From: a virus
DNA: 32,578 nucleotides
Virus record (IMG/VR): IMGVR_UViG_3300023301_000057
Span: 1-32,578 of that record
Strand: one strand, 5' to 3'
The translations under genes and the position numbers were made by a program. Each line of letters begins with the position of its first letter. Positions within the stretch are counted from its first letter, which is position 1. Below, in pieces: positions 11,672-17,485 of this stretch. The notes below the pieces were generated by a model. It searched no databases. It was not told the DNA's origin and worked only from the letters and a program-made list of their open reading frames with translations.

Positions 11672-13921
11672 TTATCTCTTTTTAGTATAATTCTTAGAAA
11701 AGTATTTATCATTAGCTAGTGTATTACTCGTCTTAAACTGATTTTCTTTAACTGATTGAGTTACTTTATATCTATCTGCTCTTAATATAAACAACATAAT
11801 ACCTGCAGAGACTCTATCAAAGTTACCATCAGGGTTCCAGTATATAGCCTCCTCTATATAAGCTATTCCTCTTAATCTGTTTAAGTTTCTGCGCTCATCA
11901 TCATCATCATTACTATGTGCCATCTCATTCATCCAATCTGCTTGTAATAGTCTTCCCCAAGCATTAATTTGTTGATTAGCTCTAGACCCTTTGGCTCTGT
12001 TACCAGATAAAGTAGGACCCTTCATAAGTTCCATATCTTTTAATATCTGAGGTGTATCACATAAAAGATATAGAGCATTTTGACTATCAAAGTAAGAAAA
12101 TAATCCTTTCAAGTTACTTTCATAATTAGCTTCTGCATTATAGAACTTTAATGTTTTTAAACATAGTTCATAAGCAATCTTAGCAGTTCTAGGTCTAGCA
12201 GAATATTCTGCAACTATCCTATCTGTAAAAGTATCCATTATCATCATACTAAATAATGAAGTACCTGCATCTGCATCAATAGGGTCAATTCCTGCTATAT
12301 ATCTGCCTCTTACTATTTCATTATTAGCATTAGTCTTTGGCATTTCAAATATCTCTAATGCACCTGTTCTATCTCCTCCTGAGAAATCATAACTTCTAAT
12401 AGGATGTATATCAGCATTAGGCTTCCATATTACTTTACCAAGTCCATCGTATATTAAGTCTCCTACATAGTGCTCTGCTAAGAAGGATTCTTTTCTAGGC
12501 ATTATATTTTCTATATGCTCCTTCAGATCCGCTACAGGAAATATAGTACCAGAAGTTCTCATCACTGCTTCTTGTGGAGTAATAGGTTCTTCTGCCTTTT
12601 TCTGAGTAATAGCTCTAGCATCACTAGCTCCATACTTAACTATAAATCTATCCTTACATACTTCTATTAATGCTTTGATAACATCAGGTTCTCCTACTTC
12701 TTCATCATAACATCTATTACGATTAAGATAAGCTCCCCAAAAGAATCCACATATAGTATCTCCATTAGTATTTTTATCAAATACATTAGGTATACCATAT
12801 ATGTTATATGCTTCAGGTTTATAGAATAGTTTCTCAGATCCTTCAAATGAAGCACCTTCTGTACCTCCAGTCCCTCCAGCAAGCATAAATCCAGAGGCTA
12901 TACCTCCATCTTCTACAGCTTTTCTGTTAACATTCCATGCTTTTTCTAAGTTAGGGAACAACCCATCTTCTTCATAGTGTATGAAAGGCCCTCTAATACC
13001 CCTAGCTTTATCAGGATTATCTTTTAATGATATACCAAAGACAGAAGATAATAGTCCCTTACGTGAGCCGTATTCATCTTCATACCCAATCTGAACTGTC
13101 ATATCAGTTTTCTTATCCACTAGTCTCATACGAGGAAGTGGAGTATGCTCTGCTATCCAGTCTAATGTATCTAATACTTTACCCCATATCCCTTTATCTC
13201 CAGATAAGAATCCTTTATCAGATGCTAAATGGAAATTAGGATTACCAGATCCAGGTAAAACATACATATTTCTTGGAGACCACATACCTGCTTTAAAGCT
13301 GAAACCGACACCTCTAGTTTTTAGAAGTTTACCATGTTGTCCTCTTTCTTGTGCTGCAGCTACATAGTGAAAGAATAAATAGTCTCCTAACCAAGGTTTG
13401 GGAAATTTCTTTACCCTTTCTCCTTGTTTATTACCTCTTATTCCATCAGTTTTTTCTACAATCCATATAGGAGCATAGTTCCAATAGAAATATAAGAGCC
13501 CAGGAATCCATTCCCCATCAGGACGTACTAATCCATACTTCCATCTATGTAATTCCTCCCTCCAAAATAATGCATAATCAGATTTAGGATTACTATTAGG
13601 TAATAAATTAGTATATTTTTTATTAGCTTCAAAGAATATTGCTCTCTCTCTAAAGAAATCCATATCTTCTAATATATGAGGATTAGTTATATTTATGTCT
13701 TTTCTTCCATCCTCATAATCAATAGGTTCCTCATCATCATTTAAATATGTTTTTATAGGCCTATCCTTAATAAATCCTCTTTCTTCCTCAGGAGCTATTA
13801 GGTTCTTGATAAATTTAACTGTAGATATGTAATCTAATATATCTTCCCAAACTTCACTATGTAATGACTCTTTTAATGCATCATTTACAGGTGTTTGGTA
13901 TTTATTAAGTTTTAATTCCAT
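11672..13921 (-). CDS. terL: Terminase large subunit
   Basis: A 749-aa packaging ATPase/nuclease, larger than many TerL proteins but usual for crAss-like phages. A Walker A-like loop KTRGVGFSFK lies at 201-210. A Walker B-like strand FIHYEED lies at 313-319, with the catalytic Glu likely at 317 or 318. LYFYWNY (143-149) is a conserved upstream block. The C-terminal RNase H-fold nuclease is indicated by AGIDPIDADAG (543-553, Asp545 and Asp549) and Glu601 in NYESN. The protein cuts concatemers and drives DNA through the portal. Its start overlaps the GroEL stop by 10 bases. No obvious small terminase subunit is identified; the 187-aa gene at 16382-16945 is one candidate by position. Confidence 0.9.
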   Translation of the reverse strand: MELKLNKYQTPVNDALKESLHSEVWEDILDYISTVKFIKNLIAPEEERGFIKDRPIKTYLNDDEEPIDYEDGRKDINITNPHILEDMDFFRERAIFFEANKKYTNLLPNSNPKSDYALFWREELHRWKYGLVRPDGEWIPGLLYFYWNYAPIWIVEKTDGIRGNKQGERVKKFPKPWLGDYLFFHYVAAAQERGQHGKLLKTRGVGFSFKAGMWSPRNMYVLPGSGNPNFHLASDKGFLSGDKGIWGKVLDTLDWIAEHTPLPRMRLVDKKTDMTVQIGYEDEYGSRKGLLSSVFGISLKDNPDKARGIRGPFIHYEEDGLFPNLEKAWNVNRKAVEDGGIASGFMLAGGTGGTEGASFEGSEKLFYKPEAYNIYGIPNVFDKNTNGDTICGFFWGAYLNRNRCYDEEVGEPDVIKALIEVCKDRFIVKYGASDARAITQKKAEEPITPQEAVMRTSGTIFPVADLKEHIENIMPRKESFLAEHYVGDLIYDGLGKVIWKPNADIHPIRSYDFSGGDRTGALEIFEMPKTNANNEIVRGRYIAGIDPIDADAGTSLFSMMIMDTFTDRIVAEYSARPRTAKIAYELCLKTLKFYNAEANYESNLKGLFSYFDSQNALYLLCDTPQILKDMELMKGPTLSGNRAKGSRANQQINAWGRLLQADWMNEMAHSNDDDDERRNLNRLRGIAYIEEAIYWNPDGNFDRVSAGIMLFILRADRYKVTQSVKENQFKTSNTLANDKYFSKNYTKKR

Positions 13922-16407
13922 AGATGTTCATTTAGTACTACTGCTTCAGTAGATAAAATAGTCTTAGCAACAGAAGCAGAATTTTCAAGTGCACATCTTG
14001 TTACTTTCAAAGGATCAATAATATTACTATCAAATCTATTACTCTTAAAATCCTTATTAATTAATCCACTAGAATTCATAAATATTTGGGAAGAGGGAGT
14101 CATTAACACATTAAGTAAGGTCTTATATATTTTATTATTCTTTGTATCCTTTAATGCAGTATAAGCTCTTACTAACGCTACTCCTCCTCCTTCAACAATA
14201 CCTTCTTCCATTGCAGACTTAACAGCTAATACTGCATCTTCTGCTCTATCTCTGGTTTCTTTCATTTCAATTTCAGATTTACCCCCTACTTTAATAATAG
14301 AAAGAGTACCTGTAAGATTAACTATTCTATCTACAAGAAATTCTTTATCGTAATCTGATATTTCGGCCACTTCTAGGGATGCTTCTATATCTTTAATTTT
14401 TTGTCTTACATCTATACTATCATGTCTACCTAGTACAGTTGTTGTTCTACCTACTTCAAAGTTTTTAGTTTTACCCAGTACTCCTATACCTAGCTGAGAA
14501 CTGTTTGTGTTAGATATGATTGTAGCACCTGTATAACTAGCAATATCTGCAATATTATCTTTTCTATACTGTCCAAAGCCTGGAACTTTAACAACTACTG
14601 CTTCTAAAAATTTATTATTTACATTAGTTTCTACCAATCTTAGTGCAGAATCTGAAATAAACTCAGTAAATATAACTAATGGTAGATTATTATTTCCACA
14701 ATGCGTTAATATAGTATTATAAGGAGATAAGTCATCTAGCTTTTTATCCAATACAAGTACTACTGCTTTTTCAAATTCAACAGTTTGTTTCTTATCATTA
14801 TTTATAAATATATTAGAGAAATAAGAAACTGGTAAAGACATCCCTGTAATTGTCTCTATAGTAGTTAATACTTGTTTCCCTTCTTCTACTTTAACTATAT
14901 TAGAATGATTATATGCCTTTTGAATAACATTTGCCAGCTCTTTATCATTATTAGATGATATAAGAGCTACCTTAAATATATCTTTCTTATGTAGCTTCTT
15001 AGAGTGCTTCTTTAGATGTATAACACTATCTCTTACAATAGTATCAATAGCATCCTTTATATCATTAATATTTGTCTCAGAGTTTAGACACTCCAATCCC
15101 ATTCTTATAAAGGATAATGCTAGACATATAGCGGTAGTTGTGTTATGTGTTAAAATATAGTTATCTGTTATATACAGAGCGTCTTTATTACTAACCTTTA
15201 TACACATCATTTCTGTCATTATATTTGTTTCTTCAATATCAATTAATTTAGTTCCATATTTATATCCTTTTAATTCTGTAATTCTGTATATAGAAGTATT
15301 TGAAAATGAAGAGTTTTCTTTTCTTTTCATTAAATAGTGATTAACGTCTTTACCTAATCCTCTCATTAATTCTATAACATCATTACATAACTGTTTACTT
15401 ATTGTAGAATACTCTAATAGTCCTCTTTTATTAATATGCCCATCTGTTTCTGTTAATCCTCTTAATAGCTTAGTCCTGGCTTCATAATTAGAATATAAAT
15501 AGTTTTTAGGTATAAACTTATCATTACTTTTATAATTTAAAAGTCCTATTTGTTCTACGTAATCATGCATAGTAGGCCCAGAATTGTTTATCCTTGAGAA
15601 TTTTATTCTTAGGTAGTGTTTTTTAAAATCTTTACTAACTGTATATTTTATACCCTTAGGTAATATTATATCTTTTAATATATATTCCTGATCTAATGCT
15701 AATGCTAATTCTATAGATCCTGTTTTACATAGAGAGCCATCTCCTAATAATAGTCCTACTAAAAAAGGATCTAAAATGAAGTTATTAGTTTTTAAATTAA
15801 AATCTACGGTTGTTTTAGGAATGTAGTATTTGTAGTGAGAACTTCCATCTTTATTTGTAGAACTTATCTTGCTTTTAATTAATTCAGAAACAGTAATTGT
15901 TTTTGATGCTCCATAATTTGTAACTACATTCCACAAATGATTATCTGAGCATTCAACTTCTCTGCCATTTGCAAATTTCAATTTATATACTTTTTTTATT
16001 CCTTTTGGATAAATACCTAGTATAGTTTGAATTGATTTGTTTGTACCACATATTTTATCTCCAATAGATAAACTTCCTATTGTTACAAAGCCCTTTGGTG
16101 TTAATACCTTACTATATAATGGTTGGGGACCGTCACCTGCCTCCTCTGCTGTTTTCTGCGCTACTTCTTTTAATAGGGTCGCACCTATATTTTTTATAGG
16201 ATCTCTAAACCTAATAGCATTTGATACACTTACTCCATCTTTAGTTATGTATGGTCTACCATATTCATCCGATATAATTACAGTACTACCCATTGGTCCC
16301 ATTGTAACTAATACTGCCTCTGCAAGTTCTTCTATTCCTTCTAGTAATAGATCCTTAGCTTCTTCTCCTGTTGTTATTTCTCTATTCAAATTGTAATCCG
16401 TTTTCAT
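13912..16407 (-). CDS. groL: GroEL-type chaperonin precursor containing an intein
   Basis: An 831-residue precursor. Residues 1-93 and 423-831 join into a 502-aa Cpn60 when residues 94-422 are removed. Conserved chaperonin blocks are visible: VLVTMGPMGSTVII (32-45), TKDGVSVSNAI (55-65), the ATP-binding AGDG (90-93) rejoining TTTA (423-426), RAEDAVLAVKSAMEEG, then GGGVAL, and IIDPLKVTRCALENSA near the end. The C-terminal Gly-Met tail of bacterial GroEL is absent. The apical and intermediate regions are more divergent than the ATPase ends, as seen in other phage chaperonins. With the GroES-like protein encoded 0.7 kb upstream in the same operon it should form a folding chamber, plausibly for capsid or tail proteins. 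The gene overlaps both neighbours (26 and 10 bases). Activity must depend on intein splicing because the insertion splits the nucleotide-binding loop. Confidence 0.92.
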   Translation of the reverse strand: MKTDYNLNREITTGEEAKDLLLEGIEELAEAVLVTMGPMGSTVIISDEYGRPYITKDGVSVSNAIRFRDPIKNIGATLLKEVAQKTAEEAGDGPQPLYSKVLTPKGFVTIGSLSIGDKICGTNKSIQTILGIYPKGIKKVYKLKFANGREVECSDNHLWNVVTNYGASKTITVSELIKSKISSTNKDGSSHYKYYIPKTTVDFNLKTNNFILDPFLVGLLLGDGSLCKTGSIELALALDQEYILKDIILPKGIKYTVSKDFKKHYLRIKFSRINNSGPTMHDYVEQIGLLNYKSNDKFIPKNYLYSNYEARTKLLRGLTETDGHINKRGLLEYSTISKQLCNDVIELMRGLGKDVNHYLMKRKENSSFSNTSIYRITELKGYKYGTKLIDIEETNIMTEMMCIKVSNKDALYITDNYILTHNTTTAICLALSFIRMGLECLNSETNINDIKDAIDTIVRDSVIHLKKHSKKLHKKDIFKVALISSNNDKELANVIQKAYNHSNIVKVEEGKQVLTTIETITGMSLPVSYFSNIFINNDKKQTVEFEKAVVLVLDKKLDDLSPYNTILTHCGNNNLPLVIFTEFISDSALRLVETNVNNKFLEAVVVKVPGFGQYRKDNIADIASYTGATIISNTNSSQLGIGVLGKTKNFEVGRTTTVLGRHDSIDVRQKIKDIEASLEVAEISDYDKEFLVDRIVNLTGTLSIIKVGGKSEIEMKETRDRAEDAVLAVKSAMEEGIVEGGGVALVRAYTALKDTKNNKIYKTLLNVLMTPSSQIFMNSSGLINKDFKSNRFDSNIIDPLKVTRCALENSASVAKTILSTEAVVLNEHLWN
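15142..16128 (-). other. Class 3-type intein with LAGLIDADG endonuclease inside GroEL
   Basis: Residues 94-422 of the precursor (329 aa) interrupt GDG|TTTA. The N-terminal block reads PQPLYSKVLTPKGF, so position 1 is Pro instead of the Cys/Ser of class 1 inteins. Block B has NHLW with His157 and Trp159. Block F has MMCIKV with Cys402. The C-terminal block is ILTHN with Thr420, His421 and Asn422, followed by +1 Thr423. Trp (B:12), Cys (F:4) and Thr (G:5) together are the WCT signature of class 3 inteins, in which the block F Cys attacks the upstream junction. Two LAGLIDADG-like motifs (LVGLLLGDG 216-224; LRGLTETDG 315-323) keep their acidic residues, so the homing endonuclease looks intact. 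Class 3 inteins are known mainly from phage and phage-derived proteins. Confidence 0.9.
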
Positions 16408-17119: not shown

Positions 17120-17485
17120 TTATGATTTAAATTTATATTTGATACAAGAATCATTAATAATTGCGTAACGTATTCCCTCCACCTCAACTGGGTCGATCTT
17201 TATTTGCGTGTTCACTTGCGTTTGATCATGGTCTAGAGGTGTTCGGACTGTCATCTTCTCTAAATCTAAGCATACTTTAAATCCTGCACTGACATGACGT
17301 TCTGCCATAGGTCCTACAGCTACTACATATTGATACTCTGATAATATATTATTAGTTGTAACTAATTCTGTATCAACTTCCTCTTTATTAATTGTTACTA
17401 CAATTCTATTGGCCAATGGCTCAATTGGAAATGATTCAATAAGTTTCTTTAATTGTTCTTCTGTGATATTTTCTTGTTCTCCCAT
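17120..17485 (-). CDS. groS: GroES-like co-chaperonin
   Basis: A 121-aa protein with the GroES order of motifs: PIEPLANRIVV (21-31) at the barrel start, a variable segment in the place of the mobile loop (NKEEVDTELVTTNN), then YQYVVAVGPMAE with VSAGFKVCLDL, and a final strand YAIINDSCIKYKF. It is longer than bacterial GroES (about 97 aa) and nearer to phage co-chaperonins such as T4 gp31 in size. It lies in the same operon as the GroEL-type gene, two small genes upstream of it, so the phage carries a full chaperonin pair. The mobile loop lacks an obvious GGI-like tip, so contact with host GroEL may differ. I am fairly sure of the fold. Confidence 0.75.
   Translation of the reverse strand: MGEQENITEEQLKKLIESFPIEPLANRIVVTINKEEVDTELVTTNNILSEYQYVVAVGPMAERHVSAGFKVCLDLEKMTVRTPLDHDQTQVNTQIKIDPVEVEGIRYAIINDSCIKYKFKS

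Follow-up and report, generated by a model that had tools for sequence, protein, structure and literature searches.

A putative class 3 homing intein in the nucleotide-binding loop of a crAss-like phage GroEL

Introduction

Inteins of class 3 are defined by a missing N-terminal nucleophile together with Trp at position B:12, Cys at F:4 and Thr at G:5, the WCT triplet (PMC3196547; PMC5050341), and it is already known that they originate from phages and that they occupy ATP-binding loops (PMC5050341; PMC3196547). The Bethlehem DnaB, Catera Gp206, Dra Snf2 and Msm and Mch DnaB-1 inteins, from mycobacteriophages and bacteria, share with the element described here the WCT triplet, a Ser or Thr at +1, the Hint fold (predicted in the present case) and the lack of a working nucleophile at position 1. 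They differ from it in host protein and site, which here are a group I chaperonin (GroEL) and GDG/TTT; moreover, several studied class 3 inteins are mini-inteins, whereas the GroEL intein has a full LAGLIDADG domain. Class 3 inteins are also found in the Walker A loops of phage TerL and helicase proteins, for example in Klebsiella N1M2 TerL (L017), Vibrio 1.161.O (L077) and Bacteroides BS-TP3 (L018), and these show 28-36% identity to the GroEL intein over the whole length, with the same blocks. They mostly start with AQP and end with THN and, like the GroEL intein, are located in a phosphate-binding loop before a Thr or Ser. Whereas these elements follow the GK of the P-loop and mostly begin with Ala, members of the GroEL family follow GDG, always begin with Pro, and form a separate clade.

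Some members of the Crassvirales are dense in inteins, with TerL inteins among those reported, although the main text of that paper refers neither to GroEL nor to chaperonins (PMC7886860). Phage-borne GroEL homologues are likewise described for phage EL (gp146) and AR9, the abstracts of which mention no intein (PMC7185714, PMC9598537). A search of a collection of open-access papers for inteins in GroEL or chaperonins found none. Here, an intein-containing GroEL gene is described from IMG/VR virus record IMGVR_UViG_3300023301_000057, of which the 32,578 nucleotides analysed are referred to as the window.

Results

The GroEL precursor and its intein

The GroEL precursor gene occupies positions 13912-16407 of the minus strand, as are all features of the locus described below, and comprises an 831-residue reading frame that is open throughout. 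Homology to GroEL was found separately on each side of the insert: the N-extein (16129-16407; residues 1-93, ending AGDG) matched Hsp60/GroEL chains in the PDB with a phmmer E value of 5e-23, and the C-extein (13915-15141; residues 423-831), which begins with the phosphate-binding loop's TTT and continues as far as the GroEL C-terminus, matched GroEL chains with an E value of 3e-63. The first residue of the C-extein aligns with Thr89 of E. coli GroEL, placing the insertion point between the equivalents of Gly88 and Thr89. The joined exteins form a protein of 502 residues in which GDGTTT, KDGVSV and GGG are all present and which, as judged from its sequence, is a group I chaperonin (GroEL) with intact ATP-site motifs. 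The first-pass annotation of this DNA had described a phage GroEL frame split between GDG and TTT by 329 residues at 15142-16128, and both the coordinates and the identity of the two exteins are confirmed.

The insert itself (15142-16128; 329 residues, PQPLYSK...LTHN) has the anatomy of an intein with a LAGLIDADG endonuclease. Its first residue is the non-nucleophilic Pro1 (16126-16128), rather than Cys, Ser or Ala, as had been noted previously. Block B contributes His64 (B:10; 15937-15939) and Trp66 (B:12; 15931-15933), the W of the WCT triplet, while block F contains Cys309 (F:4; 15202-15204), the C of the triplet and the predicted first nucleophile. Block G ends the intein with Thr327-His328-Asn329 (15142-15150), representing the T of the triplet, the penultimate His and the terminal Asn, and is followed by the +1 Thr (15139-15141), the first residue of the C-extein and the predicted second nucleophile. 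The residues referred to in the first-pass annotation as Trp159, Cys402 and Thr420 are correct in precursor numbering, and correspond to Trp66, Cys309 and Thr327 in intein numbering. Both LAGLIDADG motifs, which the first-pass annotation had judged to look intact, are present, with the catalytic aspartates Asp130 in motif 1 (LVGLLLGDG; 15736-15762) and Asp229 in motif 2 (LRGLTETDG; 15439-15465), the latter scoring above the cut-off for Pfam LAGLIDADG_3. Together with a fold match to PI-SceI, these motifs indicate that the insert probably carries a LAGLIDADG homing endonuclease, for which DNA cutting is predicted.

Assignment of the insert to class 3, as first proposed, is supported by its residues, its nearest relatives and its predicted fold. 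Pro1 in place of a Cys, Ser or Thr, Trp66, Cys309, Thr327 and Thr+1 are all present, and the WCT residues align with those of gp41-1_WCT (6riz) and of 12 phage homologues sharing 28-36% identity with the GroEL intein, each of which carries the triplet. The close relatives are all class 3, in a tree that is unrooted and includes a single class 1-looking intein (L074). An AlphaFold2 (AF2) model of the intein (pLDDT 92.3, pTM 0.90) predicts the Hint splicing fold, with comparison to the class 3 MchDnaB-1 intein returning a Z score of 19.0 (rmsd 1.9, 128 aligned of 130 residues), to the class 3 M. smegmatis DnaB intein 18.8, to gp41-1 with grafted WCT 18.9, and to PI-SceI, over the whole length (~310 residues), 25-26. 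Since class 1 domains score nearly equally, structural similarity cannot tell one class from another, and the class assignment rests on the residues and relatives. A different arrangement was observed in four other inteins (L101, L116, L138 and L209), in which Cys at position 1 is accompanied by a full Trp-Cys-Thr triplet; dual or intermediate chemistry is possible in these.

A GroEL-site intein family

The insert was found in whole on a contig from a second metagenome (L002), and a contig from a third (L003) spans its C-terminal junction. An assembly artefact is ruled out by these independent contigs. When phage class 3 inteins were used as queries against viral contigs, four other interrupted GroELs were identified, and a second scan, with these four and the window intein as queries, identified many more; one came from bacterial genome contigs. 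After removal of duplicates, 27 distinct GroEL inteins were retained, including that of the window. The search for GroEL inteins at this site, which the first-pass annotation had called for, yielded 26 more, and these form with the window intein a single clade (support 99 in the broad tree; 100/99 in one built more carefully). The insertion is at GDG/T in all 27; Pro1, the block B His, Trp, Cys, Thr, penultimate His, terminal Asn and +1 Thr are likewise intact in 27/27, and the 26 others all start with PQP. Homologous inteins more generally were found in 697 phage records. Given this number, the invariance of the W, C, T, H and N residues in 27/27 and the independent assemblies, a chance origin of the pattern can be excluded. 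A search of 50,697 deposited phage genomes gave a best match of 34%, in a protein other than GroEL, and no deposited phage with the element was found. The earlier statement that no class 3 intein is known from a chaperonin survives the literature search; insertion at this site nevertheless recurs, in 27 distinct GroEL inteins.

The phages carrying these inteins are diverse, since a distant crAss-type capsid gene is present in some host records (L171, L186, L189, L198, L199 and L201), and none was seen in other long host records. In L198 and L199, the N-terminal part of the GroEL intein lies outside the open frame of the remainder, which may reflect a frameshift, degeneration or sequencing error. 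Among 141 phage class 3 type inteins (e.g. L203, L206, L207 and L082), those with Pro1 have Gly, Ala or Gln at -1 in 33/33 cases, and Pro1 never follows a Lys at -1. The association of Pro1 with the -1 residue involves about five changes on the tree, and the independent pairs were too few for a formal test (p 0.25).

Phage context

The major capsid, portal, TerL and ring proteins encoded in the window are of the crAss-like phage type. Among isolates, the closest capsid match is to Cellulophaga phage phi14:2 (Crassvirales, Steigviridae; 63% identity), the GroEL of which is uninterrupted. Two genes upstream of the GroEL precursor gene, positions 17120-17485 of the same strand encode a protein for which an AF2 model and fold comparison predict a phage GroES-like co-chaperonin; the top 15 PDB matches to the model were all GroES, Cpn10 or gp31 (T4), with Z scores of 10.0-6.9. 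Searches of Pfam, PHROGs and the PDB by sequence gave no informative match over threshold for this protein. It is conserved in crAss-like phages, at ~37-45% identity. The presence of a predicted GroES fold by the GroEL gene suggests that the phage carries a GroES/GroEL pair.

An intein-containing GroEL gene was also observed between terminase and portal genes on a prophage-like contig (L219; JAGYLR010000027.1) in a bacterial metagenome-assembled genome. Two more GroELs are encoded elsewhere in that genome, and L233, the one checked at the site, is uninterrupted.

Evidence for mobility

Uninterrupted phage GroELs in which both flanks of the site could be read numbered 41 distinct sequences, 40 of them crAss-like, and the flanks are directly joined in all 41. 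Presence of the element is patchy: among the 42 crAss-like GroELs of the tree clade, the insert is found only in the window and L002, the two GroELs being near-identical. One of the empty crAss-like sites, that of L047, comes from the metagenome that also yielded L002, and its target sequence is very similar.

The intein DNA of the window and of L002 is identical at 986/987 nucleotides, the sole difference being silent, whereas the N-extein and C-extein DNAs are 95.3% and 93.1% identical, respectively. The tract with this one difference (15088-16140) ends 12 nucleotides before and 54 nucleotides after the intein, with flanks of 93-95% identity, and records a recent exchange. However, a second near-identical tract is present in TerL (~12444-13276), within DNA that is otherwise ~94-95% identical, and is itself a sign of recent recombination. 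General phage recombination could therefore also explain the intein tract, and homing as its sole cause was set aside.

Across carriers of GroEL inteins, intein identity exceeds GroEL extein identity in 318 of 321 pairs (means of 48.6% and 32.1%), whereas in the closest carrier pairs the intein is less conserved than GroEL. This pattern is expected if inteins moved between GroELs that had already diverged. For three pairs, AU tests gave no significant evidence against joint inheritance of intein and GroEL (p 0.14-0.53), and conflict between the intein and GroEL trees was dropped as proof of transfer.

The endonuclease aspartates have been lost in 3 of the 27 inteins (L090, L200 and L201) with no damage to the splicing residues. 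Since the latter are retained in 27/27, constraint on splicing is stronger than that on homing, and loss of the aspartates with splicing residues kept is as in the usual homing cycle. The records of GroEL inteins with damaged LAGLIDADG aspartates and intact splicing residues are L090, L193-L195, L200 and L201. Taken together, the near-identical tract, the patchy presence and the identity pattern support probable mobility, in keeping with the earlier suggestion that the intein may still home, and on these sequence comparisons the intein appears to move between phages.

Discussion

The reading that best accounts for these data, to which a probability of about 0.9 is assigned, is that the insert is a splicing-competent class 3 homing intein in the nucleotide-binding loop of a phage GroEL, and that it is mainly a selfish, self-removing element. 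By analogy with studied class 3 inteins (PMC5222942; PMC7664689), Cys309, aided by His64, Trp66 and Thr327, would attack the Gly(-1)-Pro1 bond to form a branched thioester. The acyl group would then pass to Thr+1, and cyclisation of Asn329 would free the intein, with ligation of the exteins restoring GDGTTT. ATP binding by GroEL needs an intact phosphate-binding loop, as understood from the biochemistry of the chaperonin, and a subunit still carrying the intein would be expected not to bind ATP until splicing restores that loop. The endonuclease, for its part, would cleave intein-free groEL alleles in co-infecting phages, at the GGNGAYGGN/ACNACN codons, which are conserved, and repair of the cut allele would copy the intein in. 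The phage would tolerate the element because it removes itself.

The observation made in the first-pass annotation is confirmed, while its interpretation is partly supported. The unsupported part is its proposal that splicing would gate when the chaperonin becomes active. In a regulated gate of this kind, slow or condition-dependent splicing would delay GroEL activity to a given stage of infection. With GDG separated from TTT the phosphate-binding loop of the precursor cannot be intact, and the inteins of M. smegmatis DnaB are reported to differ in their stress response (PMC6195587), both of which are in favour of such a gate. However, among the crAss-like GroELs compared, the window lineage alone carries the insert, beside 40 uninterrupted ones, and a selfish element fits this distribution better than a conserved switch; the endonuclease, the patchy presence and the exchange fit a selfish element also. 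A regulated gate is accordingly regarded as improbable, and as far less likely than a selfish homing element that removes itself.

It might alternatively be envisaged that the intein is dead or slow, with the result that no working GroEL is made and the phage depends on the host chaperonin. A class 3 relative that has lost Cys F:4 is indeed known to be inactive (PMC3196547), but no splicing residue is damaged here or in any of the 26 relatives, the exteins lie in an open frame, and the second gene upstream encodes a predicted GroES fold, rendering this explanation very improbable. The remaining alternatives, splicing of the class 1 type and a chimeric assembly, have a negligible probability. 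The insert does resemble in sequence gp41-1, a class 1 intein that likewise ends in THN. However, Pro1 is unable to initiate the class 1 reaction, and the insert has Trp B:12 and Cys F:4 where natural gp41-1 has Phe65 and Asp107 (PMC7664689), ruling out a class 1 intein; the same insert also occurs on independent contigs.

More tentatively, the selfish class 3 intein described here may be the product of a wider history, in which class 3 inteins residing in Walker A loops of phage packaging and helicase ATPases gave rise to a lineage that moved into the phosphate-binding loop of phage chaperonins, to which those loops are unrelated, became a Pro1-obligate parasite of the GroEL site, and spreads across distant phages, with splicing perhaps timing the chaperonin in some of them. 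This scenario is possible, but somewhat doubtful at present.

As far as tested, four features are new: the chaperonin host, the GDG/TTT site, a Pro1 that does not vary, and how large the family is. From the perspective of annotation, a phage GroEL may appear as a hard-to-name open reading frame of 800-950 residues. Chaperonins join the hosts of class 3 inteins with a well-sampled, site-specific family of 27 distinct sequences that have Pro1 in common. This family provides a natural test of class 3 chemistry that tolerates Pro1 after Gly, of host-protein switching between phosphate-binding loops, and of the survival of a mobile element within a folding machine.
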